A DNA stretch of 60,756 bases from Erysipelotrichaceae bacterium (GCA_031272515.1 JAISTR010000007.1:1-60756), one strand, 5' to 3'; positions 13,595 to 40,586 are shown, numbered from the stretch's first letter. Program-made: numbers and translations. The notes: generated by a model from the letters alone, not told the origin.

Positions 13595-15541
13595 ATGATG
13601 GAAAAGCGGGCTATTAACATCATCCGCATCCTGGCGCAACACAAGGATTATATTACCGCGGATGAACTCTGTGATCAGATTGGGATTCGACCACGCACTT
13701 TGCGCGAAGATTTGCGTACCTATCGCGATGTGATTGAGCGGGAATCCGGAGCAATCCTGACCTCCAAGCCCAATCATGGATACCACCTGGAGATTTGTGA
13801 CCCGCAGCGTTTTACCAGCTTTATGAAGGACATCCTGAAGCAGGAAGCGGAAAACCAATACCTGATGCCGGTCTTGCAGGAAGACCGGATTCAATATATC
13901 ATCCGCTGTTTCCTGGGTGCGAAGGACTATCTCAAGAGTGATTTCTTAGCCGACTCTCTCTACATCTCCAAGTCCACCTTTTCGATGGATTTGAAACAGG
14001 TGAAAGAACGTTTGGCTTTTTTTCATCTGCGCTTACAATCCAAGCCCGGATACGGGCTTAAGATTGCCGGGGAGGAGATACAAATCCGCTCTGCTATTGC
14101 CCAGTATTTTTTCAATATTGATGACTATGACTTAAGTCAAGTTCAAAAGGCTGGACTCTATCTGGTGGATGACTTTTATCAGCGGGAAGTGCGTCACATC
14201 GTCTATCAAACCATCAGGCAGTTCCACTTCAAACTCACAGACTTTGGTTATCAAAACCTGGTGGTACACATCATCATCGCGCTTTCCCGCATCACGCACC
14301 AAATGCCTGCGCCAGAGCAGATCCAAGCCGATACGGAATACGAAATCGCCTTGGAGATTGCCCGCAAGATCAAAAACAAACTGCAGGTACAATTACCGCC
14401 GGGAGAAATCTACTACATCATTTTACATTTGAAGGGCAAGAAGGCTTACAGCCGGGATGAACAGCTCTACATCAGCGACAAGAGCGCTGAGGTGGTTCGC
14501 CAGGTACTTGCGAAAATCAATGAAGACTTTGACTTTCAATTTGAACACGATTTGGAATTAATTACGATGTTGACCCTGCATTTCGAACCGATGCTCCATC
14601 GGATCCGCTATGGTTTAAAAATCCCCAATCCCTTGCAGGAAAGGGTCAAGCAGGATAATCCCTTGGCCTATGATGTGGCGGTTTGTGCGGCAACCAAGAT
14701 TGCGGAATTGACCGGGCAGCCGGTGGCTGAAAATGAAATCGGTTATATGGCCTTGCATTTTCAAATGGCGCTGATGCGGCGCAAGCAAGCGATTAAGCGC
14801 AACATCCTGATTATTTGTGCTTCCGGTGCCGGCAGTTCGCAGATTCTGCTCTATAAAATGAAGACCAAATTCAATCAACAGCTGGGGAATGTCCAGGTGG
14901 CCAATGCCTATGAACTCGATCAGTTGGACCAATCCAAATTTGACTTTATTCTCTCAACCATTCCCCTGGATAAACCGACGCAAATCCCCGTCATCAATGT
15001 GCAGTACTTTTTGGATGAAGATGACATTGCGGCGGTATCGTCGATGATTCAAAAAGACAGTGCTGCCATCGCCTATATCCGTTCCTATTTTTCTTCAAAA
15101 CTGTATTTTCCCGCGCAAAGCTTTGACTCCTATCAAGAAGCCATCAAATTTCTTTGTGATAAAGCCAAAGAAATTCACGCTTTACCGGAAGAATTTGAAG
15201 AACTGGTCTTAGAGCGGGAGGCAATCGCTTCCACCGCTTTGGACTCTGGCATCGCTTTGCCACATCCTGCGAAGCTGGTATTGGAAGAGAACTTCTTGGC
15301 GATAGCGCATTTGGACAAACCCTTGGAGTGGCAGAAGAAGGAGGTTTGGTTTGTCATTCTCTTGGGGATTTCCAAAACCCCCAATCCCAATCTTCCCTAC
15401 TTCAATGAAGTACTCTCTGCCTTTCTTTGTGACCGCAAAGCGGTCAAGCGACTTTTGTCAGAGCCCAGCTATGAGAATTTGGTAGCGGAAATCATGCGCT
15501 TAACCAACACCATCGAAGTGGGTGGCGAGGTCTTTCGATGA
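13595..15541 (+). CDS. LicR/BglG-type PRD activator with EIIB and EIIA domains
   Basis: A 648-residue transcription activator controlled by PTS phosphorylation. Order: N-terminal HTH domains (ADELCDQIGIRPRTLREDL near residue 25, a second near 125), PRD1 with VVHIIIALSR, PRD2 with LTLHFEP and YMALHFQMAL, an EIIB-like domain with ICASGAGSSQ, and a C-terminal EIIA-like domain with ALPHPAK. All expected phospho-acceptor His and Cys residues are present, unlike the PRD proteins at 33353 and 51029. ATGATG at 13595 offers two adjacent starts. Its stop overlaps the EIIBC start (ATGA), so it is co-expressed with the permease it probably regulates. Confidence 0.92.
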   Translation: MMEKRAINIIRILAQHKDYITADELCDQIGIRPRTLREDLRTYRDVIERESGAILTSKPNHGYHLEICDPQRFTSFMKDILKQEAENQYLMPVLQEDRIQYIIRCFLGAKDYLKSDFLADSLYISKSTFSMDLKQVKERLAFFHLRLQSKPGYGLKIAGEEIQIRSAIAQYFFNIDDYDLSQVQKAGLYLVDDFYQREVRHIVYQTIRQFHFKLTDFGYQNLVVHIIIALSRITHQMPAPEQIQADTEYEIALEIARKIKNKLQVQLPPGEIYYIILHLKGKKAYSRDEQLYISDKSAEVVRQVLAKINEDFDFQFEHDLELITMLTLHFEPMLHRIRYGLKIPNPLQERVKQDNPLAYDVAVCAATKIAELTGQPVAENEIGYMALHFQMALMRRKQAIKRNILIICASGAGSSQILLYKMKTKFNQQLGNVQVANAYELDQLDQSKFDFILSTIPLDKPTQIPVINVQYFLDEDDIAAVSSMIQKDSAAIAYIRSYFSSKLYFPAQSFDSYQEAIKFLCDKAKEIHALPEEFEELVLEREAIASTALDSGIALPHPAKLVLEENFLAIAHLDKPLEWQKKEVWFVILLGISKTPNPNLPYFNEVLSAFLCDRKAVKRLLSEPSYENLVAEIMRLTNTIEVGGEVFR

Positions 15542-21317: not shown

Positions 21318-21428
21318 GACTCTTTGGTTTTTCTGCTTGCTGTTTAAATGACAGTCATTTTTTGTGTCGCTTGTCTTGATGGTTAAGATTCGAGTTTTGC
21401 GGCATACTGGATAAAGAGGTGATGGACT

Positions 21429-21668: not shown

Positions 21669-22955
21669 ATGAATCGTGTCCTTGATTTTTGCGAACGCAA
21701 AATCCTGCCGATTTTTGAAAAGCTGGGAAATCAGCGACACCTGGTCGCCATTTCCCAGGCTTTTGGTGCGACTTCCCCGTTTTTAATCACCGCTTCCTTC
21801 GCCATGTTGCTGACAATTTTCTCGCAGAATTTTTTGATTGGAAATGGCTTGGTTGCAGAGAACAACGGAATTCTCACTTTTGTTATTCTTTGCTCTAAAA
21901 CCATCTGGAAAGCCGTTATGGATTTATATGGTTTGGCCTTTGTGGCGGCGCTGGCCTATCACTTGTCACTCTCTTATAAAAAAGAGGTGCTTGGTCCCAT
22001 CCTGTGCGCGCTATTCAGTTGTATGATTTTTGTACCTGAAAGCACTTTAACCAGTCTTTCCCTCAGCTATTTCAGTGCCGTCCATCTCATCCCCTTAATC
22101 ATCATTACCTTAATCTCCACCACCGTCTTTTTGTTCTTTGTCAATCACAAGCTGAACATCAATCTGGGTGAAAACATTCCCCCCAATGTAATGGATTTTT
22201 TTCAAAACCTGCTGCCTGCTTTATGCACCGGTTTTTTGTTTGTGATGCTCAAAGAACTCTTGTTGATCCATGATATTGACCTATACAGTTTTCTATCACA
22301 ATATGCGACCACTCCGCTTTTGTCCTTATCCCAGTTTTTACCGGTGATTCTTTTGAACCTGTTTCTGGTACAGTTTATCTGGTACTTTGGTCTGCATGGT
22401 TCCACCATCATGAATATCTTAACGGACTATATTTTCAAATTGCCCTTGTTATTTAATATGTATTGGTTTAGCACCCAGCAGTTTGGCTTGACGACTCCCT
22501 ATATCTGGTCCAGTTCTGCCAACAGTGCCTTTGCCTTAATTGGGGGCAATGGCGCTACCCTGGGCTTGGTACTGGCTTTGAAATTCTTTGGGAAGAGTGA
22601 GCACGAAAAGCAGGTAGCCAAACAGGCTTTACCTTCCAGCATCTTTGAAATCAATGAGCCGGCTACCTTTGGCTTGCCGGTCATCCTGGATCAGGATTAT
22701 ATCATTCCCTTCCTATTTACCGCACCGCTCTGCTGTATTCTTCCCTATATTGCCATTACCCAGGGCTGGATGCCGGCGGTAATCATGGAATTGCCCTGGA
22801 TTACCCCACCGGTTCTCTATGGATTTCTGGCAACCGGAGGCAGCTTTATGGCGGTTTTGATTTCTCTTGTCAATATTGTCTTTGCGGGTTTATTTTGGGG
22901 CTACTTTGTCGTACGGAAACAAAAAATTTCAGTGAAGAAAGGAGAACAGACATGA
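21669..22955 (+). CDS. PTS lactose/cellobiose-family EIIC
   Basis: A 428-residue membrane permease with the family motif INEPATFGLP and FGLHGST near the substrate site, and about ten hydrophobic segments. An AGAGGAGAAAC ribosome site precedes the ATG. Its stop overlaps the start of the MupG-like gene (ATGA), tying transport to hydrolysis. EIIB at 20991 is the obvious partner; the EIIA at 24041 is convergent just beyond the operon. Confidence 0.92.
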   Translation: MNRVLDFCERKILPIFEKLGNQRHLVAISQAFGATSPFLITASFAMLLTIFSQNFLIGNGLVAENNGILTFVILCSKTIWKAVMDLYGLAFVAALAYHLSLSYKKEVLGPILCALFSCMIFVPESTLTSLSLSYFSAVHLIPLIIITLISTTVFLFFVNHKLNINLGENIPPNVMDFFQNLLPALCTGFLFVMLKELLLIHDIDLYSFLSQYATTPLLSLSQFLPVILLNLFLVQFIWYFGLHGSTIMNILTDYIFKLPLLFNMYWFSTQQFGLTTPYIWSSSANSAFALIGGNGATLGLVLALKFFGKSEHEKQVAKQALPSSIFEINEPATFGLPVILDQDYIIPFLFTAPLCCILPYIAITQGWMPAVIMELPWITPPVLYGFLATGGSFMAVLISLVNIVFAGLFWGYFVVRKQKISVKKGEQT

Positions 22956-24384: not shown

Positions 24385-26447
<2,063 letters not shown>

Positions 26448-26466: not shown

Positions 26467-26581
26467 ATTATAAAGGAAACCAAAGTCAGCGCGGTTTATG
26501 ACTGCGGCACATTGAAAGCCATAAAAATCCATGAAGTCAAAAAAATCCAAAATCAAAAGTCTGCTGATTCTCCTTTATAAT
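26467..26581. promoter_or_regulatory. divergent promoters with GGCA-N7-AGCC element (deoC-GH1-EIIA / PfkB)
   Basis: Minus-strand TATAAT at 26472-26467 and plus-strand TATAAT at 26576-26581 face away from each other, both followed by AATGAAAGC and a ribosome site. The element GGCA-N7-AGCC (26506-26520), followed by AAAAATCCATGAAG, starts 70 bp before the rightward -10 and 48 bp before the leftward one. Similar elements occur at 30703 and 35386. Neither promoter has a good -35, which suggests an activator. Confidence 0.6.
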
Positions 26582-26600
26582 GAAAGCAGGAGGCAAGTGT

Positions 26601-27731
26601 ATGCGTAAAAAACATAAAACGATGGTAGCCGGACATCTTTGTTTGGATATCACCCCGGCTTTCTCTGGCCCAGGGGACCGCAAACTCTTTGACATCATCG
26701 GCCCGGGCAAGCAGGTTCTCACCGGTCCGGTGGACATTGCCACCGGCGGGGCAGTCGCCAATACCGGCTTGGCCATGAAGATTTTGGGTGAGGATGTGGT
26801 GTTGGTTGGAAAGATAGGCAAGGATGAATTTGGCGCTTTGATTAAAGGCATCTTGGATAAATATGATTGCGGCCAAACCCTGATAGAAGATCATCATGTG
26901 ACCTCCTCTTATTCTTTGGTTGTGGCTTTGCCAAACATCGACCGCTTCTTCTTTCATCATCCCGGAGCCAATGACCACTTTTGTTTAGCGGAAATAGAGG
27001 ACAGCCTGCTTCAGGATATCTCCCATTGTCATTTCGGCTATCCAACTTTGATGGCAGAAATCTACCGGGATCAGGGCGAGGGACTCAAACAGTTTTTCAA
27101 AAAGCTTCAAAAGCGGGGAATTACGACTTCCCTGGATACTTCGATGGTGGACTTTTTTAGTGAAGGCGGAAAAGCAGACTGGGAAGCATTTTTAAGCAAG
27201 GTGTTGCCTTTTGTGGATTTCTTTTTGCCAAGTGCGGAAGAGTTTTGCTGGATGATTGATAAAGTGCGCTATCAAGACTGGATCAAGCGCGCGGCAGGTG
27301 GGGACATGATGGAAGTGATTACTGAAGATGATGTTTCACCACTTGCTGATAAAATCCTGCAGCTGGGCGCAAAGGTTGCCTTGGTGAAGTGCGGGGTTTT
27401 GGGGCTGGTCGCAAAAACCGCCAATCAAGAAAAGATGGCAGGTCTATTATCCAAATACAATTTAAAAGAGGACTGGATCAAACAAAACGAATTCGAACCG
27501 AGCTACCATGTGGATCACATTGTTTCCGGCACGGGTGCCGGGGATACCGCCATCGCCGCTTTCTTGACAGGTGTGCTAAGAGGCGAAAGTCTATCTTCCT
27601 GCTTAAAGCTGGCAGCCGCAACCGGTGCCCTTTGTCTATCTGCCCCCGATGCTTTGGGGGGAATTGTGCCCTATAGTGAGGTCCAAAACAAAATTCAAGC
27701 CGGATGGAAAAAGAACAAGCCTGTATCATGA
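26601..27731 (+). CDS. PfkB-family carbohydrate kinase
   Basis: A 376-residue ribokinase-like sugar kinase. The N-terminal glycine motif GGAVANTGLAMKILG (from about residue 52) and the C-terminal GTGAGDTAIAAF (catalytic Asp) are clear. It is longer than usual for the family because of an insertion around residues 225-305. I chose the ATG at 26601, preceded by GCAGGAGG; the in-frame start at 26580 overlaps the -10 box. It shares its promoter region with the deoC-GH1-EIIA operon, so it probably phosphorylates a sugar released from the imported glycoside, such as the unphosphorylated aglycone sugar. Its 3' end overlaps the convergent gene by six bases. Confidence 0.88.
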   Translation: MRKKHKTMVAGHLCLDITPAFSGPGDRKLFDIIGPGKQVLTGPVDIATGGAVANTGLAMKILGEDVVLVGKIGKDEFGALIKGILDKYDCGQTLIEDHHVTSSYSLVVALPNIDRFFFHHPGANDHFCLAEIEDSLLQDISHCHFGYPTLMAEIYRDQGEGLKQFFKKLQKRGITTSLDTSMVDFFSEGGKADWEAFLSKVLPFVDFFLPSAEEFCWMIDKVRYQDWIKRAAGGDMMEVITEDDVSPLADKILQLGAKVALVKCGVLGLVAKTANQEKMAGLLSKYNLKEDWIKQNEFEPSYHVDHIVSGTGAGDTAIAAFLTGVLRGESLSSCLKLAAATGALCLSAPDALGGIVPYSEVQNKIQAGWKKNKPVS

Positions 27732-28211
27732 CTTGTTCTTTTTGTGTTTCTTGACCGTTTTTAAATCCTGCTTTTTATTGAGAATCATATCTTCGAGTTC
27801 CAATAACCCGATTTCCACCGCCTGGCGTCGGGAGCCAAAGTCAAACAGCAGCCGCACCCCATTGATGAGTTTCACCAAAAATTTCTTGCTTTTGTGCTTT
27901 TGCTCTACATCAACTCCGGTAAGGTTGTCCTCATAGGGAGTCAAGGTATAGGCGATATAGGAAGTTTCAGCCACCGAGTCGTAAGTCGTACAGAAATACT
28001 CATCCTGGCGATGATTGATGGTGACGGTTACCGGTACACTGCGCTTTTTCTTTTCATTGACGATGACTTTGCGCTGATAGGTAAAGCCATCCGGCAGATG
28101 CGCCCGGTCCAATTTCATCTGGGCATCGGTTTTGATGCTTGCCAAAGCAACATCCAGCATGGCGTTGTATAATTGTGCTCGTGAGACTTTGAGTACGACA
28201 TGTTGTTTCAT
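27726..28211 (-). CDS. DUF3284-like protein
   Basis: A 161-residue cytoplasmic protein, taken from the ATG at 28211 (MKQHVVLKVSRAQLYNAML). It looks like a START/SRPBCC-type fold of alternating strands (VPVTVTINHRQDEYFCTTYD, then TSYIAYTLTPYEDNLTGVDV) and ends in a lysine-rich tail. It resembles DUF3284 proteins found beside beta-glucoside PTS genes; I assign this by recall of pattern, not by search. The open frame extends to 28358, but that would cross the divergent HAD gene. Function unknown. Confidence 0.7.
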   Translation of the reverse strand: MKQHVVLKVSRAQLYNAMLDVALASIKTDAQMKLDRAHLPDGFTYQRKVIVNEKKKRSVPVTVTINHRQDEYFCTTYDSVAETSYIAYTLTPYEDNLTGVDVEQKHKSKKFLVKLINGVRLLFDFGSRRQAVEIGLLELEDMILNKKQDLKTVKKHKKNKS

Positions 28212-28259
28212 GACTTTAGTATCGCAAGTTGCACTGCGACTGTCAAGGAGATTAAAACG

Positions 28260-29057
28260 ATGAAACTGATTGCTGCAGACATGGATGGGACCCTGCTGGA
28301 TGTTAGTGGGAAATACAATCACAGATTGTTTCGCCAGGTATTGGACTTGGCGAAACAAAAGGGGGTTGCAATTGCGATTTGTACCGGCAATCAGGGTGTT
28401 TGGACGGATCTTCAGTTTTCAGAATATTTGGATGACTTGTGGATTTTGGCCGATGGGGGTGCGCGAATGCATTATCGGGATGAAATCACGTATTACTCAA
28501 GCATTTCGGAAGAACTCAGAAAAAACTTATTGCATAAAATTCTCTCGCTGCCATATCCGCTGGAATTGATTTTGTCCATTGGGGAACACTGTTATGTGCG
28601 CAAAGGGATTGATGAGAGTAAAACGAAGTACATTCTCAATCACTTCGATCAGCCTGTTGCCATCGATGACCTGTTAATGATAAAGGGGGATATATTGAAA
28701 TTCACAGGCTTTAGTGAAAGCCGCCAGGGACAAAAAATCGTGGAGGCTTTAAGTGAATTCAATGATTGCTTGGATATTGTTTCACCAGAAGGGTATTGGT
28801 TGGACATCACCCAGAAAGACGTGAGTAAAGGCAGTATCCTTACGCATCTGCAAGCCCGCTTAAACATCACAAAAGAAGAAACCGTGACCTTTGGGGATGG
28901 GCGCAATGACTTGACGATGTTTGCGGTGGCAGGCCTCAATATCGCGCCTTTAAGCGGAGAAAAAGAGGCGATGGAAGCAGCGGACTTCTTAATTGCCTCC
29001 AATGAAAATGACGGGGTACTAAAAGCAATGATGAAACTGTTAGAGATGAATGGCTGA
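28260..29057 (+). CDS. HAD-superfamily (Cof-type) sugar phosphatase
   Basis: A 265-residue HAD hydrolase of the Cof/IIB branch. Motif I is AADMDGTLLD (nucleophile Asp8), motif II CTGN, and motif IV FGDGRNDLTMF. Such enzymes remove phosphate from sugar phosphates and act as intracellular detoxifiers. An AAGGAGATT site precedes the ATG at 28260; the longer frame from 28200 has no ribosome site. It is divergent from the DUF3284-like gene and convergent with manA. Confidence 0.92.
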   Translation: MKLIAADMDGTLLDVSGKYNHRLFRQVLDLAKQKGVAIAICTGNQGVWTDLQFSEYLDDLWILADGGARMHYRDEITYYSSISEELRKNLLHKILSLPYPLELILSIGEHCYVRKGIDESKTKYILNHFDQPVAIDDLLMIKGDILKFTGFSESRQGQKIVEALSEFNDCLDIVSPEGYWLDITQKDVSKGSILTHLQARLNITKEETVTFGDGRNDLTMFAVAGLNIAPLSGEKEAMEAADFLIASNENDGVLKAMMKLLEMNG

Positions 29058-29065
29058 CAATTCAC

Positions 29066-29998
29066 CTATTCTGAGGTACAGCAGATTTCACCTTTGCCGG
29101 TGATTTCCAGCTTTTCAAGAAGAGGCGACACCAGAAAGCTGTCGCCTTTTTTTACGTTTGTTTGATTTACATTCAAACTGCCGCTGGAAACACTCATGCA
29201 GAGATAGCGGTTTAAATCAAGGGTAATGGTTCCATCGATTTGAAAGGATTCAATGGTGAAGTCCGAATCGGACCAGAAGGTGGTGCGGGTACCACCACCC
29301 AAGTCTTGGATAAGCGGCTTTGGCTGAATATCCGGAAAGTCAAAGCGAATCGATTCCATAGCTTCTTTTAAATGTAAGGGCCGTAACTTGCCGCTTGCAT
29401 CCAAACGGTTGTAATCATAGAAGCGATAAGTCACATCCGTCGCTTGTTGAACTTCATAGACTATGACATCCTTCTGCAGCGCATGCAACATCCCGGCAGG
29501 GATATATACAAAGTCTTTGGCAGCAATCGGTCGGGATACACAGATGTCATCCCAGCGACCCGCAGCCATTAAGGCTTGCAGTTCTTTAAGGTTGTTGGCT
29601 TTGGTGCCCATGATTAAATCGGCATCCACTGTGGCCTTTAAGAAGTACCAGGCTTCATTTTTGCCGGAGGGATAGCCGTGTTTTTTCGCGACTTCGTTAT
29701 TGGGATGCACCTGTACACTCAAGCGGTCCTGGGGGCCGACAAAGCCGATGATAAAAGGAAAGCGATTGTATTTTGATTGAAAGATTTCCGGATGCTTTTC
29801 AAACAAATCCTTCAAAGTTTGTCCCTGGTATTCTGAATTCAGGATTTCATTGGAACAGCCTTCTTTTTCTTGGCAACTAAAAGCCCAGAACTGACCGATA
29901 CCAAGAGGGAAGTCTTTAAAACCGAATTCGTTTTTTAAGGCGTCGATTCCCCATAAGGCAGCACGGGGAATCGGCTTGGTCAATAAGATGTCTTTCAT
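29066..29998 (-). CDS. manA: mannose-6-phosphate isomerase, class I
   Basis: A 310-residue cupin-fold isomerase that interconverts mannose-6-phosphate and fructose-6-phosphate with a bound zinc ion. The ligand segments QVHPNN and KNEAWY, then PAGMLHAL and the Arg-containing TDVTYRFYDYNR, are all present; the length is typical of Gram-positive ManA. The ATG overlaps the stop of the epimerase gene (ATGA). Its place in this sugar operon suggests that mannose-6-phosphate, or a close epimer, is released from the imported glycosides. Confidence 0.92.
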   Translation of the reverse strand: MKDILLTKPIPRAALWGIDALKNEFGFKDFPLGIGQFWAFSCQEKEGCSNEILNSEYQGQTLKDLFEKHPEIFQSKYNRFPFIIGFVGPQDRLSVQVHPNNEVAKKHGYPSGKNEAWYFLKATVDADLIMGTKANNLKELQALMAAGRWDDICVSRPIAAKDFVYIPAGMLHALQKDVIVYEVQQATDVTYRFYDYNRLDASGKLRPLHLKEAMESIRFDFPDIQPKPLIQDLGGGTRTTFWSDSDFTIESFQIDGTITLDLNRYLCMSVSSGSLNVNQTNVKKGDSFLVSPLLEKLEITGKGEICCTSE

Positions 29999-30639
29999 CG
30001 CAAGCCTGCTAGTGCCTCTTGGTAGCTTAAGCCATCGCGAAACAGGGCACTGGTTCCCAGTACAAAACCATCCACCCCGATGTTTGCGTATTTCTCAATT
30101 ACTGCTGGGGTGCAGTTGCCATCCAAGAAGATCGTATAGCCATAAGTGCTTTTTAGCTTCACCAGCTCTTTGATTTTCGGCTCGACAAAATCCAAAAATT
30201 TTTGTCCCGCAAAACCCGGGTGTACGCTCATGATTAACAGATCATCACAAAGCGGCAACATCTCCCTGACACTTTCCACGCTTTCCTCCGGATTGATGGC
30301 AATTCCCGGATGTACGCCTGCTTCCTTTATTTTCAATAGGGTCTTGGTCGGGAAAGCATCCGCTTTGGGATGAATGTAGATGATGTCACAGCCGGCCTTT
30401 ATAAACCAGTCAATTTTATCACCGGGATTTACCATCATCAAATGCGCATCCAGTGGTAGGCTGGTAAGGCTGCGAATGGCCTTGATATCCTGTAAACCCA
30501 AGGTCAAATTGGGTGTATACACACCATCCATGACGTCAATGTGAAACAGGTCAGAACCGGCTTTTTCCAAGGCTCTGACTTCTCTTTCCAGATTTCTAAA
30601 ATCTGCGCACATCATGGAGGGACTCAATAATCGTTTCAT
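29995..30639 (-). CDS. AlsE/Rpe-family ketose-phosphate 3-epimerase, AlsE-like
   Basis: A 214-residue TIM-barrel epimerase. Metal and catalytic segments FHIDVMDG, DAHLMM, MSVHPGFAGQKF and FLDGN are visible. Details such as the opening SPSMMCAD, IYIHPKAD, LDGNC in place of the usual VDGG, and GTSALF resemble D-allulose-6-phosphate 3-epimerase (AlsE) more than housekeeping Rpe. AlsE turns allulose-6-phosphate into fructose-6-phosphate. I chose the ATG at 30639 (GGGGG ribosome site); a start at 30663 overlaps the TATAAT box. The gene is divergent from a GH1 gene through a shared regulatory element. Confidence 0.82.
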   Translation of the reverse strand: MKRLLSPSMMCADFRNLEREVRALEKAGSDLFHIDVMDGVYTPNLTLGLQDIKAIRSLTSLPLDAHLMMVNPGDKIDWFIKAGCDIIYIHPKADAFPTKTLLKIKEAGVHPGIAINPEESVESVREMLPLCDDLLIMSVHPGFAGQKFLDFVEPKIKELVKLKSTYGYTIFLDGNCTPAVIEKYANIGVDGFVLGTSALFRDGLSYQEALAGLR

Positions 30640-30661
30640 AAGGTACCCCCGTTCTGCTTTC

Positions 30662-30757
30662 ATTATACATGTTTCTATCCATTGAAATGAAACAGGAAAA
30701 ATGGCATATAGAGTGCCGGAAAAATCAATGAAGAAAAGCCGATTGCCCTTTTACAAT
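30662..30757. promoter_or_regulatory. divergent promoters with GGCA-N7-TGCC element (alsE-like-manA / GH1-EIIB-HAD)
   Basis: Minus-strand TATAAT (30667-30662) and plus-strand TACAAT (30752-30757). The central element is GGAAAAAT, GGCA-N7-TGCC (30703-30717), GGAAAAAT. GGCA starts 49 bp before the rightward -10, and the mirrored arm lies 50 bp before the leftward -10. The -35 regions are poor. One bound activator could serve both directions. Confidence 0.62.
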
Positions 30758-30774
30758 GATAGCAGGAGGGGACT

Positions 30775-32193
30775 ATGACAAAACCATTACCAAAAACATT
30801 TTACTGGGGCTCATCCACCAATGCCCAACAATTTGAAGGTGGCTGGAATTTGGATCACAAAGGAGAGACCATTGCGGACGCCAGGGTCTTACAAGGCGGC
30901 TTTTCCAATTTCAAAGTAGCCAGTGACCACTATCACCGCATGGATGAAGATTTTGATTTATACCAGGAGATGGGATTCACCATCTATCGCTTTTCTATTT
31001 CCTGGGCTAGGATATTTCCAAGTGGCGACGACGAAACACCCAATCCGGAAGGTCTGAAGTTTTATGACTATATGGTGGATGGTTTAATCAAGCGCGGGAT
31101 TGCGCCAGTCGCAACCCTCTATGCCTATGACCTGCCTTTGGCGCTATTAAAGAAGTACGGTGGTTTTAAAGACCGGCGCTGCATCGATGCCTATGAAAAC
31201 TATGTGCGTACCGTCTTTAAGCACTTTAAAGGCCGGATTAAATTCTACACACCCTTTAATGAACCAAACCTGTTTCATATGGATCAGGAGTATATCGCTG
31301 GCAATGCCGGGTTAAAACAAAGTGACAAAGAGACCTGGCAGATTGAACACCACTTGACCTTGGCTTACGCCAAATGTGTCAATGCCTGCCATGAAATTGA
31401 TCCGGATGCGAAAATCGGACCGAATACTGCCTGTGGAGTGGTGTATCCCGCTACCTGCAATCCCAAGGATGCCAGACTGGCACAACGCGAGATGTATTTG
31501 CGCAACTGGGCCTATCTGGATACCTATTGCCGCGGTGGTTATCCGCAATACTTCTTGAATTATCTTGAAGAAATGGATGTCTTGCCTGAAATGTTAGCAG
31601 GGGATAAGGAGCTGATTGCCAGCGTCAAGCCGGATATCATCTCCACAACCTACTACAGCTCTTCCGTGGCCAGCAGTGACCCGGATCACTTCAAAAGCAA
31701 ACCGCTACCGGCAGCCAAGGAGTTCCAGGAAGCCAGAGTACAATATCGTCCTTCCATCTTAAACCCCTATACCAGCGAAACCGAGTGGGGCTGGATTATT
31801 GATCCGGATGGTTTCTACTATCAATTGACGGAGCTCTATCACCGCTATCAATTACCGATTGTCATTCTGGAAAATGGCATTGCGGCGACGGAGGAAATCG
31901 ATGAGAATGGCAAGGTCTATGATGATTACCGCATTGACTATTTGGCGAAACACATCGAATGCATGAAGGAAGCAGTAGCGGATGGCGTGGACTTGTTGGC
32001 ATATCTGACCTGGTCGGCTACCGACCTCCACTCGACCCGTGAGGGTTTTGTGAAGCGTTATGGTTTTGTATATGTGGATCGTTATGAGCATTCGCTGCGG
32101 ACGCTTGACCGCTACAAGAAAAAATCTTTCTGGTGGTATAAGAAGGTGATTGCTTCCAATGGCGAAGATCTTAAAAACGATATAGAGTATTAG
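30775..32193 (+). CDS. GH1 6-phospho-beta-glycosidase with altered glycon site
   Basis: A 472-residue GH1 enzyme with acid/base Glu163 in PFNEPN and nucleophile in ILENGIAA; the FVKRYGFVYVDR block is the phosphate-binding C-terminus. The normally conserved His of the TLxHFDxP segment, which binds glycon O3, is Ala117 here (TLYAYDLP; codon GCC). The other three GH1 proteins keep His. It is followed by EIIB (14 bases) and a HAD phosphatase, and is divergent from the AlsE-like epimerase. A sugar differing at C3, such as a 6-phospho-alloside, would fit both facts; this is an inference. Confidence 0.92.
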   Translation: MTKPLPKTFYWGSSTNAQQFEGGWNLDHKGETIADARVLQGGFSNFKVASDHYHRMDEDFDLYQEMGFTIYRFSISWARIFPSGDDETPNPEGLKFYDYMVDGLIKRGIAPVATLYAYDLPLALLKKYGGFKDRRCIDAYENYVRTVFKHFKGRIKFYTPFNEPNLFHMDQEYIAGNAGLKQSDKETWQIEHHLTLAYAKCVNACHEIDPDAKIGPNTACGVVYPATCNPKDARLAQREMYLRNWAYLDTYCRGGYPQYFLNYLEEMDVLPEMLAGDKELIASVKPDIISTTYYSSSVASSDPDHFKSKPLPAAKEFQEARVQYRPSILNPYTSETEWGWIIDPDGFYYQLTELYHRYQLPIVILENGIAATEEIDENGKVYDDYRIDYLAKHIECMKEAVADGVDLLAYLTWSATDLHSTREGFVKRYGFVYVDRYEHSLRTLDRYKKKSFWWYKKVIASNGEDLKNDIEY

Positions 32194-32207
32194 TGAAGGA
32201 GGAAAGA

Positions 32208-32507
32208 ATGAAACTAGTACTATTCTGTACCGCAGGGATGTCTACGAGCCTTTTAGTGAACCGTATCAAAGATGCAATCAAAGAACAGAATGTCGATGTG
32301 GAAGTAGAAGCCTTCGCCGTGCGTGCCGTCGAATCCGAAGGCGCGAATGCGGATGTCATCCTGCTTGGCCCGCAAGTACGCTTTGAACTGAAACGGCTAC
32401 AAGCGCTCTATCCCGAAAAGAAGATTGCCTCCATCGATATGCAAGCATACGGCATGATGGATGGCAAGAGAGTGCTCAAACAGGCTTTGGATTTATTTGG
32501 AAAGTGA
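32208..32507 (+). CDS. PTS lactose/cellobiose-family EIIB
   Basis: A 99-residue EIIB with phospho-cysteine loop FCTAGMSTS (Cys7) and LLGPQVR. It closely resembles the EIIB at 20991. GGAGGAAAGA precedes the ATG. No EIIC is adjacent; the EIICs at 35505 and 40583 lie downstream in the same direction and are probable partners. Confidence 0.92.
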   Translation: MKLVLFCTAGMSTSLLVNRIKDAIKEQNVDVEVEAFAVRAVESEGANADVILLGPQVRFELKRLQALYPEKKIASIDMQAYGMMDGKRVLKQALDLFGK

Positions 32508-32552
32508 GAACAGAAAGAAAGGCGATGCCTTTCTTTTGTGTAGGGAGGATCA

Positions 32553-33356
32553 ATGAATCTTTTCGTGTTTGACTTGGATGGAACCTTGTTGTCCGAACAA
32601 AATAATCCGCTTGGTGAAATTCTACCAAAAACCAGAGAAGCACTTCTCACCTTACGCTCCCAAGGACACCAGCTGGTTTTGGCATCAGGGCGCTGTAAAC
32701 GCGGGATGACCCATTTTTCTGAGCTCTTGGACTTTTATAAAGGTGGTTATTTGATTGGCTATAACGGTGGTTTGTTGTGGGATTGTTTAAAAGAGGAAAC
32801 CTTGTTTTCCCAGGTCTTTGATGGTGCGCTGTGTAGTAACATCCTTTCTCATTTGGTGAAGTTTGATGTCACCTTGATGATTGACTCTGGCGAAACCATG
32901 TATCTCAACCAAGAAAACAGGATGACAGAATATGAGTGTGGCACCAACCACTTAACACCGGTGGTCCTGGCTGATTTTTTACAATTGCCGAACTTTCCGG
33001 TTCACAAAATCCTGGTTTACCAAGAAGAAGAAAAGCTGCAGGCACAGGTACCAAAGATTATCGAGCCCTTTCAAACAAGGGTTGCCTATGCCTACAGCGC
33101 TCCGGTCTATTTCGAAATCACACCTTTGGGTATTAACAAAGCCCAGACTTTAAAACGATTACAAGCGCTTTTGCGTCCGCAAAAAACCATCGCATTCGGC
33201 GATGGGGAGAATGATCTGGGGATGTTGGCTTTGGCGGATATTTCGATTGCCATGAAAAATGCGGAACCAAAGGTTAAAGATGCTTGTGATATGATTACCG
33301 ACTCCAATGATGAAGAGGGAATCTTTGTGGCCTTACAGAAACTGGGATTTTGTTAA
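32553..33356 (+). CDS. HAD-superfamily (Cof-type) sugar phosphatase
   Basis: A 267-residue HAD hydrolase: FDLDGTLL (motif I), ASGR (motif II) and FGDGENDLGML (motif IV), with a Cof-type cap domain between. GGGAGG precedes the ATG. It is the last gene of the GH1-EIIB-HAD operon and overlaps the convergent PRD regulator gene by four bases. It may dephosphorylate excess sugar phosphates from this pathway. It is a second Cof-type phosphatase beside that at 28260. Confidence 0.92.
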   Translation: MNLFVFDLDGTLLSEQNNPLGEILPKTREALLTLRSQGHQLVLASGRCKRGMTHFSELLDFYKGGYLIGYNGGLLWDCLKEETLFSQVFDGALCSNILSHLVKFDVTLMIDSGETMYLNQENRMTEYECGTNHLTPVVLADFLQLPNFPVHKILVYQEEEKLQAQVPKIIEPFQTRVAYAYSAPVYFEITPLGINKAQTLKRLQALLRPQKTIAFGDGENDLGMLALADISIAMKNAEPKVKDACDMITDSNDEEGIFVALQKLGFC

Positions 33357-35332
33357 GCATGCATGTGCAAGGCTGGAATGGTTTTGTGATTTTGCGAAGG
33401 AAGCAGGGTCCTGGCCTTGTTTTTTTGAATATCCACCAGCACTTTGATGAATTCACAATAGTTCTGTGCGGTTTTCAACCTGGTGCTGTTGAGTGTGTCT
33501 TTTTCCAGGGTGTGAAGAATCTGGTATAGGGCTTCAAACAAGAGCGAGCTTTGCTCGGTTAAGGAGCAGACGATAAATACATCGGCTTTGCTTTTGTCAA
33601 AGATAAAGGGCTCATCGGACCTTAAAATACTGATGAAGGACGAATCTTCAATTGGAAAGTTGAAACGCAAAAGCGTGATGCCATTTTCAAACTCCACCAC
33701 CTGCCTTTTTTTCTCATCAAACATAATCGAGGTATGGATGATGTTTTTGGATAATCGATAATGGCTTGTGATGGTGTCAATGAAATGATTGATGAGCTGA
33801 TTGACGGATTTGATTACCAGGTGATCCTGGTATAAGAGCGGATTACAGATGGTTTGAATCAAGGGCAGACGGAACTGGCGGTCCAAAAAATTTCGAACTC
33901 TGCGAATGTCTTCGGCGGTAATCAGGTAGGAAATCGTCACGACCGGAACCGATTGCACCTCCGGTACCGGACCGGTTGAGATGATGAAATCGTACTCAAG
34001 ATCTTCCACCATCTTGAAGCGGTAAAAGGGTAGAGTCTTCACAAACTGTATTTCCGTACCAAAGTAGCTGTAAAGCTGATGGCGGATGTAAGAGCGCTCG
34101 GATTGGCGGGTACCGCAAATCAAAAGCGCTTCCAGCATCGAGTTATTGAAGAGGTAGATCGCATCGGTAAAGGAAACGGACAGATTGCCCAGTTCACTGG
34201 AGCGCATCCTAAAGCCATAGTGCTTTTCAATGATTTCAGAGGCAATACGGGCACAGTGGTAACCCAAAGGGAAGCGGTGTTCCAGAATCAAAAACAGCGG
34301 AGTACGCAGTTTACAGCGATATTTGTTGCGAAAAATGATACCGGGAAGGTATTCCCGCAAATACAACACACACTTTTCCACCATCCGCAAAGACAACATG
34401 GTCGATGCTTCAATGGCATCCAGAATTTCATCGACCACCTGAATGCATTCTTCTTTTGAAATCACATTGACCTGGATTTTTTCCTTGCGGGCGATCAGCT
34501 CAATTCCCAAATACAAGCGCTCTGCTTCGTTCAATTTCGTATTTAAAACGATTTCCAAGACATCGGCAATCTGATTGGCTGCCTGAAATTCGACCGCGTC
34601 CTGGATTTCCGGCAACTCGGGCAACTCTGTTAAGATATAGCCTTTTTGAACCCGTTGCAACATGACGCTGATGTACAAAAAGAAATCCACAATCGATACA
34701 TCAGAGAGTTCAATACCGCTGTTTTCGATGATGGCGATGATCTGTGGCTCAGGCAGAGAAGCATCCGGGGTGAACAAGAGCTCATTGGTCAGGTTGGCGG
34801 TATAAAACTGGGTGAAGTCCATATCGCAGATGGCAGCGCGATGTGCGCGCTCATTGCCCTCCACTTTCAAGCCGAAGTTCGGCTTTTGACGGATGGTGAT
34901 GCCACGCTCGTTGAGATCAATCTTGCAGGTTTTTAAATCATTGGAAATGGTTGCCCGACTGACGGCGAGTTCTTGAGCCAGGTCATCGATTTTGAAATAA
35001 CCGTCGGCTTTTAAAAGCAAGGTGGTTAAATAGTTCTGGCGCTCAGAGGGCAGTTGGGGAATCGAGCTTTGATAGCTGGTCTCCAGCTGATCGATTGCCT
35101 CTTCCAACTCCAAAAAGGTCTTGTCGTTTTGTAAGACAATCCGGTAGCCTTTTGACACGGATGATTCCAGAGTAAAACCAAATTCCCGCAAGATTTGGCG
35201 GATGTGCTGCATTTCATCGCGAATCAAGCGCCGGGAAATGCCGACCTGCTTGGCAATCTCATAAGAGGACAAGAAGTCGCTTGCCCTGGTCAGCAGATAG
35301 ATGATGTCAATATCCACCCGCTTCAATTTCAT
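33353..35332 (-). CDS. PRD-type transcription regulator lacking phospho-acceptor residues
   Basis: A 659-residue LicR/MtlR-like regulator. N-terminal HTH (SSYEIAKQVGISRRLIRDEM) and a second HTH (IDDLAQELAVSRATISNDL) are clear, followed by two PRD-like regions, an EIIB-like domain (EALLICGTRQSERS) and an EIIA-like domain. By-eye alignment with the intact protein at 13595 shows the PRD1 His replaced by Tyr (FLYISVMLQR), the PRD2 His by Ser (LSVSFTDAI), and the EIIA LPH motif by LLRFNFP. I chose the ATG at 35332 (AAGGGGACC). It is divergent from EIIC 35505 and is the best candidate to bind the GGCA-N7-WGCC elements. Confidence 0.88.
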   Translation of the reverse strand: MKLKRVDIDIIYLLTRASDFLSSYEIAKQVGISRRLIRDEMQHIRQILREFGFTLESSVSKGYRIVLQNDKTFLELEEAIDQLETSYQSSIPQLPSERQNYLTTLLLKADGYFKIDDLAQELAVSRATISNDLKTCKIDLNERGITIRQKPNFGLKVEGNERAHRAAICDMDFTQFYTANLTNELLFTPDASLPEPQIIAIIENSGIELSDVSIVDFFLYISVMLQRVQKGYILTELPELPEIQDAVEFQAANQIADVLEIVLNTKLNEAERLYLGIELIARKEKIQVNVISKEECIQVVDEILDAIEASTMLSLRMVEKCVLYLREYLPGIIFRNKYRCKLRTPLFLILEHRFPLGYHCARIASEIIEKHYGFRMRSSELGNLSVSFTDAIYLFNNSMLEALLICGTRQSERSYIRHQLYSYFGTEIQFVKTLPFYRFKMVEDLEYDFIISTGPVPEVQSVPVVTISYLITAEDIRRVRNFLDRQFRLPLIQTICNPLLYQDHLVIKSVNQLINHFIDTITSHYRLSKNIIHTSIMFDEKKRQVVEFENGITLLRFNFPIEDSSFISILRSDEPFIFDKSKADVFIVCSLTEQSSLLFEALYQILHTLEKDTLNSTRLKTAQNYCEFIKVLVDIQKNKARTLLPSQNHKTIPALHMHA

Positions 35333-35350
35333 ATGGTCCCCTTTTTTCTC

Positions 35351-35440
35351 ATGATAGCACAATCACTGGCTCAGCGGAAAAATCTGGCACTATTTATGCC
35401 GGAAACCGGTGTAGAAAACCTTTGTTATTAAAACGATAAT
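35351..35440. promoter_or_regulatory. divergent promoters with GGCA-N7-TGCC element (PRD regulator / EIIC)
   Basis: Leftward extended -10 TGCTATCAT on the minus strand (box 35356-35351) and rightward GATAAT (35435-35440). The element GGAAAAAT, GGCA-N7-TGCC (35386-35400), GGAAA lies between. GGCA starts 49 bp before the rightward -10, the same as at 30703. The element sits near the regulator's own -35 region, so autoregulation is likely. Confidence 0.6.
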
Positions 35441-35504: not shown

Positions 35505-36821
35505 ATGTCCAATAAAAAATCTTTCATGGAATCATTCACCGAAAAGATTGATGTCATTTCTGGCCCCATGATCAAGTTTGGTCAAATCAAGTTCATTCGT
35601 GCGGTCACATCCGGTATGGTTGCGACCATTGGCGTCACGATGATTGGTTCGATCTTCTTGGTAATCTACCTGCTGGGTTCGGATGGGGGTTTGACAACCA
35701 CCGCGTTGTTGCCTTTCTTGAAGCCGTTTGCGGGTAAGATTGTTTTGGTACAAAGCTTGTCCATGGGAATTATGGCCGTCTATATGTCGGTCTCCATGGG
35801 CAGTGAGTATGCTGAAATCAAGGGGTTTAGTAAGACAACCGGTGCCGTTGGTGCTTTGTTTGCCTTTATTCTGTTGAACTATAACGGAATCGATGCAACG
35901 GTAGATGGTGTCAGTGCATTACCGATTAACTATTGGGGCGGAGCAGGGGTCATTACTGCGATTGTCGCAATGGCGATATCAACCAATATTATTTCATTCT
36001 GCTACAAACGCAACATTAAGATCAAGCTGCCGGATTCGGTGCCGCCAGCCATCGCAGAGTCCTTCTCTGCGGTTATTCCTTATCTGTTTGTGGCGATGGT
36101 TACCTGGGGCATCCGTACACTGTTAGATTTCAACCTGCCCAAGATGGTGACCGATGTTTTGCTGCCGATTCTCTCAGCAGCGGATAATGTCTTCACCTAT
36201 GCCTTGGCTTACTTCTTTGTTTCACTCTTCTGGACCATTGGTCTGCATGGGGATAACATTGTCGGGGCAGTTACCAGTGCGATTGTTACTACCTGGAATA
36301 CAGAAAACGTCAATCTGTATGCATCCGGAGTCGCGAATGCGGACCTGCCTTATGTTTGGACCAGCAACCTGAATCGGATTCACCTTTGGGTTTCGACCTG
36401 CTGGCCCTTACTGATTTACATGTTTATGTCTTCGAAGAAGCTGCCGCATCTCAGGCCGCTGGCGGGGATTGCCCTACCACCTGCCATCTTCTGTATCATC
36501 GAGCCGATTATGTTCGGTTTACCGGTGGTGCTCAACCCGTTCTTTATCGTTCCGTTTATCCTCTCTCACGTCGTTACCGCAATCCTGACTTATCAACTCA
36601 CTGCGGTTGGCTTTATCGGCAAGATGTGCATCAACTTGCCCTGGGCTTCGCCCCCGCCGCTGCTTGGTTATTTGGGAACAGGTGGCTCGATTGGAGGTTT
36701 GATTATCGTATTTGTCAACCTGGCAATTGGCTTAGTCATCTTCTATCCTTTCTGGAAATCTTACGAGAAAAACGAAATCAAGAGAATTGCGGAAGAAGCA
36801 GCAGCCGAAGCAGCTGCTTAG
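35505..36821 (+). CDS. PTS lactose/cellobiose-family EIIC
   Basis: A 438-residue permease with SVPPAIAESFSAVIPYLF, GLHGDNIVG and IIEPIMFGLP motifs and about ten hydrophobic segments. I chose the ATG at 35505, with TTTAGGAGGG before it; the in-frame ATG at 35463 lies in the leader hairpin. It is strongly similar to the EIIC at 40583, more than to other EIICs here. It likely works with EIIB 32208 and EIIA 24041. A hairpin terminator follows, with probable readthrough into the next genes. Confidence 0.92.
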   Translation: MSNKKSFMESFTEKIDVISGPMIKFGQIKFIRAVTSGMVATIGVTMIGSIFLVIYLLGSDGGLTTTALLPFLKPFAGKIVLVQSLSMGIMAVYMSVSMGSEYAEIKGFSKTTGAVGALFAFILLNYNGIDATVDGVSALPINYWGGAGVITAIVAMAISTNIISFCYKRNIKIKLPDSVPPAIAESFSAVIPYLFVAMVTWGIRTLLDFNLPKMVTDVLLPILSAADNVFTYALAYFFVSLFWTIGLHGDNIVGAVTSAIVTTWNTENVNLYASGVANADLPYVWTSNLNRIHLWVSTCWPLLIYMFMSSKKLPHLRPLAGIALPPAIFCIIEPIMFGLPVVLNPFFIVPFILSHVVTAILTYQLTAVGFIGKMCINLPWASPPPLLGYLGTGGSIGGLIIVFVNLAIGLVIFYPFWKSYEKNEIKRIAEEAAAEAAA

Positions 36822-36889: not shown

Positions 36890-37321
36890 ATGAAGACTTG
36901 TCCTTACTGTAAGAAGAAAGTCGATGATGATTCAAAGTTTTGTCCCTTCTGCGGCAGAAATTTGACGAAGGTCACCAAACAAGCTATCGCCTTATCCGAA
37001 GAGGAGACAAAGATAAAAAACCGGATTCAAGCCTTGGCGAATCTGGCTTTGATTGTATTTTTTGGCGGTTTGATCATCTGTGATTGGTTGCTGAATGTTT
37101 TATTGGGAGCGATGAATATTTCCACCAAAGGCCCGATTTATTTGAGCTGTGCTGTATATCTGGTGGCAGGAGCGATTGCCTTATTGGCCATCTATCAGTA
37201 TTTCTTAGTCAAAAAGAAGGGGATAGCCGTAGAGAATCATGAACTGGTGGTACCCTTAGGTGTCTTGTCGGTGATTGTGCTGGTGCTTTTGATTAACATC
37301 AGCGGCGTACTAATGGGGTGA
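36890..37321 (+). CDS. zinc-ribbon membrane protein
   Basis: A 143-residue protein with an N-terminal zinc ribbon (CPYC, 13 residues, CPFC; residues 4-22) and three membrane segments (about 50-72, 83-104 and 118-141). The ribosome site is AAGGAGAATCT. Function unknown; proteins with an N-terminal zinc ribbon and membrane helices are common in gut Bacillota. It is followed after three bases by a similar gene, then by a GH1 gene, which implies an operon with sugar-catabolic genes. Confidence 0.8.
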   Translation: MKTCPYCKKKVDDDSKFCPFCGRNLTKVTKQAIALSEEETKIKNRIQALANLALIVFFGGLIICDWLLNVLLGAMNISTKGPIYLSCAVYLVAGAIALLAIYQYFLVKKKGIAVENHELVVPLGVLSVIVLVLLINISGVLMG

Positions 37322-37324
37322 GTT

Positions 37325-39161
<1,837 letters not shown>

Positions 39162-39164
39162 ATT

Positions 39165-40121
39165 ATGCCGATTATTCGTTTGATTAATGCGAATCGCACC
39201 GCGATTCGCGAGATGAGCGCTTCCGATTTAAAGAAGTCCATCATGGCCAGTGAAGGCCGGGTCATTATGACGCAGTTCTTCGTCTGGGGTAATGTGATGG
39301 GTGGAGTTAACAATGCGGAACTGCAGCAGGCTTTTGGTTCTGACATGGTGATGATGAACGGCTATTCCACCGATCCCAAAGTAAAACCCCTGGGACTGCG
39401 CAATCCCAAAGGCGGCACCTATAAGATTCGCGATCTCAAGAAAATCGTTGATATCCCCCTGGGTGTTTATCTGGAGTGCGGAGATCCGGAATTCTTAAAG
39501 CAACAGGAAACCACCTCCTATGGAGTCAATATGTTATCACCAGACCGCATTGCCAGCCGCGAAAACCTCATCAAAATCAAAGAGGCCGGTGCCGATTTTG
39601 TGGTTTTGGCGGGTAATCCCGGCTCCGGCGTCACGCATGAAAACATCATCAAAAACGTGAAGATTGCCAAAGAAGTACTCGGTGATGACATTTTGATTTT
39701 TGCGGGGAAGTGGGAAGATGGAGTCTATGTGAAGGTCTTGGGTGACCCGATTTTGGGGGTTGATGAGTCCAAGCGCATCATCAAGGAATTGTTGGATGCC
39801 GGGGCGGACTGCATCACCATGCCGATGCCGGGTTCAAGAACCGGGGTGACGGTCAATGATATGCGGGAATTGGTGACTTTTATCCATACCTACAAACCCG
39901 GCAGTTTGGCCTTGTCTTTCTTGGATGCCAGTATTGAAGGGGCTGATGAAGAGACCATCCGCAAGTGTGCGGTATTATCAAAGCAAACCGGAGCGGATAT
40001 CCACTGTTTGGGGGATGCGGACTTACAAGGCTCCACCAGACCGGAGAATGTCTATTCCTTCAGCATTGCGGCCAAAGGCCGACTGAAGACTTGGTTCCGT
40101 ATGGCGGGCTCCAAGCATTAG
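39165..40121 (+). CDS. TIM-barrel protein of unknown function (DUF7916-like)
   Basis: A 318-residue cytoplasmic protein of a family often found beside cellobiose-type PTS genes. Motifs I can see are ASEGR, FGSDMVMMNGY, IPLGVYLECGDPE, FVVLAGNPGSGVTHENI, IFAGKWEDG and MPMPGSRTGVT, which read as successive strands of a TIM barrel binding phosphate. Databases often label relatives as haloacid dehalogenase-like, but no HAD DxD motif is visible, so that name looks wrong. It sits between GH1 and RpiB, three and nine bases away, and probably acts on a sugar phosphate as an aldolase, epimerase or isomerase. The reaction is unknown. Confidence 0.75.
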   Translation: MPIIRLINANRTAIREMSASDLKKSIMASEGRVIMTQFFVWGNVMGGVNNAELQQAFGSDMVMMNGYSTDPKVKPLGLRNPKGGTYKIRDLKKIVDIPLGVYLECGDPEFLKQQETTSYGVNMLSPDRIASRENLIKIKEAGADFVVLAGNPGSGVTHENIIKNVKIAKEVLGDDILIFAGKWEDGVYVKVLGDPILGVDESKRIIKELLDAGADCITMPMPGSRTGVTVNDMRELVTFIHTYKPGSLALSFLDASIEGADEETIRKCAVLSKQTGADIHCLGDADLQGSTRPENVYSFSIAAKGRLKTWFRMAGSKH

Positions 40122-40130
40122 GATAAGATC

Positions 40131-40586
40131 ATGCGAATTGGAATCGGCACCGACCATGTCGGGTTTGCCTACAAAAAAGAAATCAGCGACTACCTCAAGG
40201 ACCTGGGCCATGAGGTAGTCGACTATGGAACCTATTCTACAGAGCGCACCGATTATCCGATTTGGGGCAGTAAGGTCGCCAGGGAACTGGTGGCAGGCAA
40301 TATTGAGCGGGGTGTACTGATTTGTGGAACCGGTGTTGGTATTTCCTTATCAGCGAACCGCTTTCAAGGGGTGCGGGCAGTGGTCTGCAGTGAACCCTAT
40401 ACCGCGAAGCTGGCCCGCGCCCATAACAATGCCAACATCATTGCCTTTGGCTCCAGAGTAATAGGCATTGAGTTGGCGAAGATGATTGTGGAGGTATTCT
40501 TAACAACTGAATACGAAGGGGGTAGACATCAGCAACGGATTGATGAGCTGGATGATGACGACTTCCTTTGCGGAATGAAAGAATGA
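40131..40586 (+). CDS. rpiB: RpiB/LacAB-family sugar-phosphate isomerase
   Basis: A 151-residue isomerase of the RpiB family. It has IGTDHVGFAYK at the N-terminus, the catalytic Cys in LICGTGVGIS (near residue 66) and ARAHNNAN. The family interconverts ribose-5- and ribulose-5-phosphate, allose-6- and allulose-6-phosphate, or (as LacAB) galactose-6- and tagatose-6-phosphate. It is a single gene, not a LacA/LacB pair, which argues against the last. The stop overlaps the EIIC start (ATGA). With an AlsE-like enzyme at 29995, an allose-6-phosphate route is possible. Confidence 0.88.
   Translation: MRIGIGTDHVGFAYKKEISDYLKDLGHEVVDYGTYSTERTDYPIWGSKVARELVAGNIERGVLICGTGVGISLSANRFQGVRAVVCSEPYTAKLARAHNNANIIAFGSRVIGIELAKMIVEVFLTTEYEGGRHQQRIDELDDDDFLCGMKE

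Follow-up and report, generated by a model that had tools for sequence, protein, structure and literature searches.

In a 60,756-nucleotide stretch of DNA from an Erysipelotrichaceae bacterium (JAISTR010000007.1:1-60756, hereafter the window), comparative sequence analysis makes it very likely that the palindrome GGCA-N7-TGCC is the operator of an MtlR-type PRD activator, encoded on the minus strand at 33353–35335, that controls sugar genes. If so, a group of Erysipelotrichales regulators, for which our literature search turned up no operator, gains an operator, a promoter geometry and a set of targets, such that its regulons become predictable from sequence alone. The same group would provide a natural case of PRD proteins that have specific DNA recognition but lack the phosphorylation sites through which control is believed to act.

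Three elements and their promoters in the window

A first-pass annotation had proposed that one activator defines a regulon through a GGCA-N7-WGCC element shared by three divergent promoter regions. All three elements, with the same seven-base spacer, were verified in the window sequence at 26506, 30703 and 35386. Site A (GGCACATTGAAAGCC, GGCA-N7-AGCC, 26506–26520) lies between aldolase and GH1 genes on the left and a PfkB kinase gene on the right, site B (GGCATATAGAGTGCC, 30703–30717) between epimerase/PMI and GH1/EIIB genes, and site C (GGCACTATTTATGCC, 35386–35400) between the regulator gene and an EIIC operon. Sites B and C are perfect GGCA-N7-TGCC palindromes, and the right arm of site A is degraded to AGCC, leaving no true palindrome. 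The AAAAATC-n-ATGAAG segment described behind two elements was found after site A at 26523 and after site B at 30720, its ATGAAG occupying the −35 position, the slot filled by T[ACG]GAAA in related promoters. The GGAAA-type direct repeats suggested as a shared flank are absent around the sites in other genomes and are thus not conserved.

The distances given between elements and −10 boxes are exact in all six cases. Rightward from GGCA they are 49 bp at site B (30752 − 30703), 49 bp at site C (35435 − 35386) and 70 bp at site A (26576 − 26506); leftward they are 48 bp (26520 − 26472, site A), 50 bp (30717 − 30667, site B) and 44 bp (35400 − 35356, site C). On the plus strand, site C is followed at its position 27 by a weak −35-like TAGAAA (35412–35417), which conforms to T[ACG]GAAA, and at position 50 by the −10 box GATAAT (35435–35440), whereas site B has a degenerate TGAAGA (30729–30734) in the −35 position and, again at position 50, the TACAAT of the GH1 promoter (30752–30757). 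Leftward, on the minus strand, the TATAAT boxes of the epimerase (30662–30667) and aldolase (26467–26472) promoters fall at position 51 of site B and position 49 of site A, respectively. The distance of 70 bp from site A to the TATAAT of the kinase promoter (26576–26581, plus strand) was given correctly, but it shifts this promoter by 21 bp from the register seen elsewhere, at what is also the weaker site.

The bare motif is only mildly enriched in the window, with 12 matches against 5.1 ± 2.9 expected from shuffles, and perfect GGCAYN5RTGCC palindromes number 37 in the 2.13 Mb genome. These counts would leave room for short palindromes having landed in the promoters by chance. We inspected every one of the 37: 34 fall inside coding ORFs, one forms a rho-independent terminator and two, sites B and C, are located in promoters, with no further promoter-located copy among them. 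As a separate matter, a terminator or RNA hairpin at sites B and C was ruled out, both being upstream of the promoter and followed by no U-tract.

An out-of-sample scan distinguishes the sites more sharply. A 32-position weight matrix built exclusively from 27 promoters of another bacterial family ranked site C (plus strand) first, at 23.4 bits, and site B (plus strand) second, at 17.8 bits, among approximately 121,000 window positions; none of 300 Markov-simulated windows reached 23.4 bits, and no second-best score reached 17.8. Taken with the fact that a different family has kept the site, its spacing and its target genes, this leaves almost no weight for chance, which the scan refutes for sites B and C and which could still account for site A (rank 6 leftward in a 15-mer scan, rank 7 rightward in the 32-mer scan). 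A 31-bp composite, GGCA-N7-WGCC-N2-AAAAATC-n-ATGAAG, occurs in the genome at sites A and B only, even with up to three mismatches allowed, and its share in this composite makes site A probably genuine. Among the three it is nonetheless the least secure, with a broken arm and with the kinase promoter displaced by 21 bp.

The TATAATGAAAGCAGG-like sequence that had been described as common to these promoters occurs, with up to two mismatches, at 39 places on many contigs and is therefore not specific to them; the shared AATGAAAGCAGG sequence was accordingly rejected as a mark of the regulon, being a genome-wide promoter feature with 39 occurrences. We also observed TATAATGAAAGCA as a recurrent −10/initially transcribed sequence throughout the genome (for example at 26576, 30752, 26472 and 30667), at several sites directly before a Shine–Dalgarno-like sequence, which implies very short leaders. 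Elsewhere in the window, GTCATTTTTTGTGTC at 21354–21368 is a weak candidate operator upstream of a 73-amino-acid ORF and an EIIC gene at 21669.

Conservation of sites, promoters and probable target genes

Orthologs of the 33353 protein (approximately 30% identity) are found in a related family, f2, in hosts recorded in GTDB as Stoquefichus, Longibaculum, Sharpea, Eggerthia, Thomasclavelia and others. In these relatives the regulator gene faces an EIIC-Znribbon-Znribbon-PMI-GH1 operon, and elsewhere an epimerase gene faces a LacI-family gene; the palindrome or its GNCA-N7-TGNC variant is present in both intergenic regions of most f2 relatives. Upstream of the regulator in L084, two tandem palindromes, GGCATTGATTATGCC and GGCACATATTATGCC, lie 37 bp apart.

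Aligned on the palindrome, the foreign promoters read GGCA-N7-TGCC-N11-T[ACG]GAAA-N16/17-TANAAT. The hexamer at positions 27–32 is T[ACG]GAAA in 25 of 27 (the other two being TCGATA and TAGAGA), and the best −10 box starts at position 48–50 in 24 of 27. Because the same palindrome-to-−10 spacing recurs there, 49 bp is a conserved distance. The promoter at site C agrees with this foreign consensus in all three parts (palindrome, TAGAAA at 27 and GATAAT at 50), and that at site B agrees in the palindrome and −10 box and deviates in its −35 slot, TGAAGA. The poor −35 boxes remarked on in the window are likewise a feature of the relatives, where the slot is weak and never begins TTG, its second base being T in none of the 27 promoters.

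This geometry bears on the direction of control. An intergenic palindrome near promoters could serve the PRD protein for repression, and its position alone would be compatible with interference with an upstream promoter. Yet the palindrome lies wholly upstream of the −35 element at a fixed distance, not over the −10 box or start point, the −35 slots are of the weak kind just described, and MtlR, a relative that has been characterised, acts as an activator from a comparable location (PMC3217849), so that we consider a repressor site unlikely by a wide measure. From the position of the site and the weak −35 boxes, we infer activation rather than repression. The mirrored arrangement noted in the window fares less well. 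Its leftward spacings of 48 and 50 bp are compatible with activation in that direction, but fully symmetrical bidirectional activation is weakly supported at best: the conserved −35 hexamer is absent from the leftward window promoters, and bidirectional activation is no conserved property, since the aligned promoters of the relatives have no conserved −10 box at a matching distance on their regulator-facing side.

Across 30 genomes, the composite pattern GDCA-N7-TGHC-N11-TNGAAA gave 30 palindromic matches in all 14 f2 genomes that encode the regulator, against 5 matches in 4 of 15 genomes that lack it (Mann–Whitney p 9e-6, Fisher p 5e-5), values that overstate independence because the genomes are related. 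The few matches in the regulator-less genomes are taken as chance hits, and those with a locus all lie in coding DNA except one. The stronger argument is that the same architecture recurs at EIIC, epimerase and GH1 genes within genomes. In every one of the 14 genomes with a 33353 ortholog, the site precedes an ortholog of the EIIC, epimerase or GH1 gene. At the EIIC promoter, a few regulator-bearing genomes have no form other than GNCA-N7-TGNC variants.

In the window, site C precedes an operon beginning with an EIIC gene of the lactose/cellobiose PTS family (35505–36821, plus strand), which shares 64% identity with an EIIC controlled from a foreign site, and continuing after two zinc-ribbon proteins with a GH1 6-phospho-beta-glycosidase-like gene (37749–39161, plus strand; 53% identity to its foreign-locus ortholog). 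To the right of site B is a second such GH1 gene (30775–32193, plus strand), with 71% identity to a GH1 that immediately follows a site in another genome (L116), and to its left an RPE-family epimerase (29995–30639, minus strand; 53% identity to the foreign-locus ortholog) followed by a PMI gene (29066–29998; 40%). Site A is flanked by a DeoC/LacD-family aldolase (25749–26447, minus strand) and the PfkB-family kinase (26601–27731, plus strand). That orthologous genes stand under foreign sites supports the regulon, and of the members originally assigned to it the GH1, EIIC and epimerase genes are upheld by orthologs, with the kinase and aldolase at site A less certain.

The two small proteins between EIIC and GH1 (36890–37321 and 37325–37738) combine a zinc ribbon with hydrophobic stretches that probably lie in the membrane; the pair is conserved in orthologous operons of another family. 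Genes for the RPE-family epimerase, a PMI-like isomerase, a DUF7916 protein and an RpiB/LacAB isomerase (29066–30639 and 39165–40586) cluster with the phospho-beta-glycosidases and could make up a pathway whose substrate is one of the less common phosphorylated sugars.

The 33353 regulator and its link to the probable operator

The 33353 protein is an MtlR-type PRD regulator with the domain order HTH_11, Mga-HTH, PRD, PRD, EIIB-like and EIIA-like, and is the proposed binder of the palindrome. Pfam (HTH_11 63.6 bits, Mga 43.5, PRD 54.6 in two stretches) and a fold search agree on an N terminus of HTH_11 and Mga-type HTH domains preceding two PRDs, as in MtlR-type regulators. In an AlphaFold model (mean pLDDT 78, pTM 0.62), the HTH, PRD and EIIB parts match AtxA, MgaSpn and MafR, and residues 490–637 match EIIA structures (Z 14.1, rmsd 2.6, 139 aligned), an EIIA domain that dominated a second structure search. 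Thus the C-terminal EIIB-like domain, through which the AtxA/Mga matches extend, and the EIIA-like domain both correspond to the MtlR type, whereas the Mga/AtxA/MafR (PCVR) regulators have no EIIA domain; the NCBIfam model AcpB_EbpR_MafR scores 78.9 bits, below its cut-off of 130, and PADLOC returned only weak HTH-type matches. A palindromic operator just upstream of the −35 element is a further MtlR-type trait, here with different spacing (N7, 11 bp).

The clade departs from MtlR-type activators in its phosphorylatable PRD1, PRD2 and EIIA histidines. All 13 clade members aligned, from 33353 and its orthologs L054–L066, have other residues at the four histidine positions of the PRDs and at that of EIIA, judged against a window paralog (13595–15541) that keeps them all; the EIIB cysteine is retained in 9 of 13. 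Control through the PRD and EIIA histidines is thereby excluded on sequence grounds, and a signal other than histidine phosphorylation would have to act on the activator. Somewhat tentatively, control may have passed to a non-classical input, for example a sugar phosphate bound directly, the cysteine of the EIIB-like domain on its own, or the conserved Zn-ribbon pair encoded in the site C operon. With DNA recognition kept and the phosphorylation sites gone, sensing by the remaining domains becomes directly testable.

The motif tracks this type of regulator. A GNCA-YN5R-TGNC site lies within 300 bp upstream of the regulator gene in 17 of 22 clade members (18 with L017) and in none of 31 other PRD regulators, counts that follow the reassignment of four members by hand, the automatic labels having given 15/18 versus 2/35. 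Within that distance, L018, L022, L085 and L086 have no such site. Clade members share an HTH-1 recognition helix, GI-x-RR-LVRDE and variants (RR-x-[VI]-R). The proposal of one activator and one regulon is thus borne out by the regulator, its HTH-1 helix, orthologous targets and the 49-bp spacing.

The palindrome might instead be bound by a LacI-family repressor, whose gene adjoins the epimerase site in several relatives. We regard this as highly improbable. In the relatives, these promoters contain classical LacI/CcpA-type operators (GTAAACGTTTWC) apart from the palindrome, and the nearest LacI relative in the window genome is 30% identical, encoded on another contig and no close ortholog; both points make LacI an unlikely binder. 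Nor does the palindrome track the LacI-family gene, and in genus g31 it precedes PRD regulator genes although some of the neighbouring genes differ. The LacI/CcpA-type operator itself overlaps or follows the activator-type promoter in intergenic regions of L054, L055, L057, L059, L062 and L063 and is absent from the window promoters.

For the 33353 activator, we envisage that a dimer binds the palindrome, the near edge of which sits 11 bp upstream of a weak −35 element (site C has TAGAAA and site B TGAAGA where relatives have T[ACG]GAAA), and recruits RNA polymerase to a good −10 box about 49 bp beyond the first base of the palindrome, presumably by class II activation as proposed for MtlR. 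Site C would control the EIIC-Znribbon-Znribbon-GH1 operon and perhaps the regulator's own gene, site B the GH1 and EIIB genes together with epimerase and PMI, and site A, less certainly, the aldolase and GH1 genes and the kinase.

Comparison with known PRD regulators

The Mga/AtxA/MafR virulence regulators resemble the 33353 protein in fold over the HTH, PRD and EIIB parts (AtxA, MgaSpn and MafR). A loss of PRD histidines like that of the 33353 clade is also known from MafR, which reportedly has none in common with MtlR, AtxA or Mga (PMC8560693). Unlike these regulators, the clade keeps an EIIA-like C-terminal domain (about residues 490–637) and has a sharp, conserved operator, whereas Mga, AtxA and MafR are reported to have no conserved binding sequences (PMC8560693). 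UlaR2 of Streptococcus pneumoniae is also a PRD-family activator, and its weight-matrix site AACACARRMCTGTGTK has the CACA..TGTG core of the GGCACA-N3-TGTGCC found here, but with no flanking GG/CC, an N4 centre and ascorbate genes as targets (PMC4324149). No N7 form of this operator turned up in the open-access literature that we searched, which does not prove that none has been published.

The closest parallel is MtlR of B. subtilis at PmtlA, a PRD activator with two N-terminal HTH domains for which class II activation was proposed by its authors (PMC3217849). Its site, TTGTCACAGTCATGTGCCAA according to the primer sequences (GTCA, N8, TGCC), has half-sites GTCACA and TGTGCC nearly the same as those here and lies just upstream of a sigma-A −35 element, and its promoter is overlapped by a cre-type site (PMC3217849), an arrangement comparable to that of the LacI/CcpA-type sites in the relatives. 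The differences are an N8 centre against N7 here and a gap to the −35 element (TTGTAT) of 20 bp, counted by us from the published primers, against 11 bp here (PMC3217849), which puts the operator about one helical turn nearer the −35 element than that of MtlR. The target genes also differ, and MtlR keeps phosphorylatable histidines (PMC8560693) where the 33353 clade has lost those of its PRD and EIIA domains. The 33353 protein thus belongs to a known kind of activator, set apart by the altered spacing of its site and the unusual loss of its sensing histidines.
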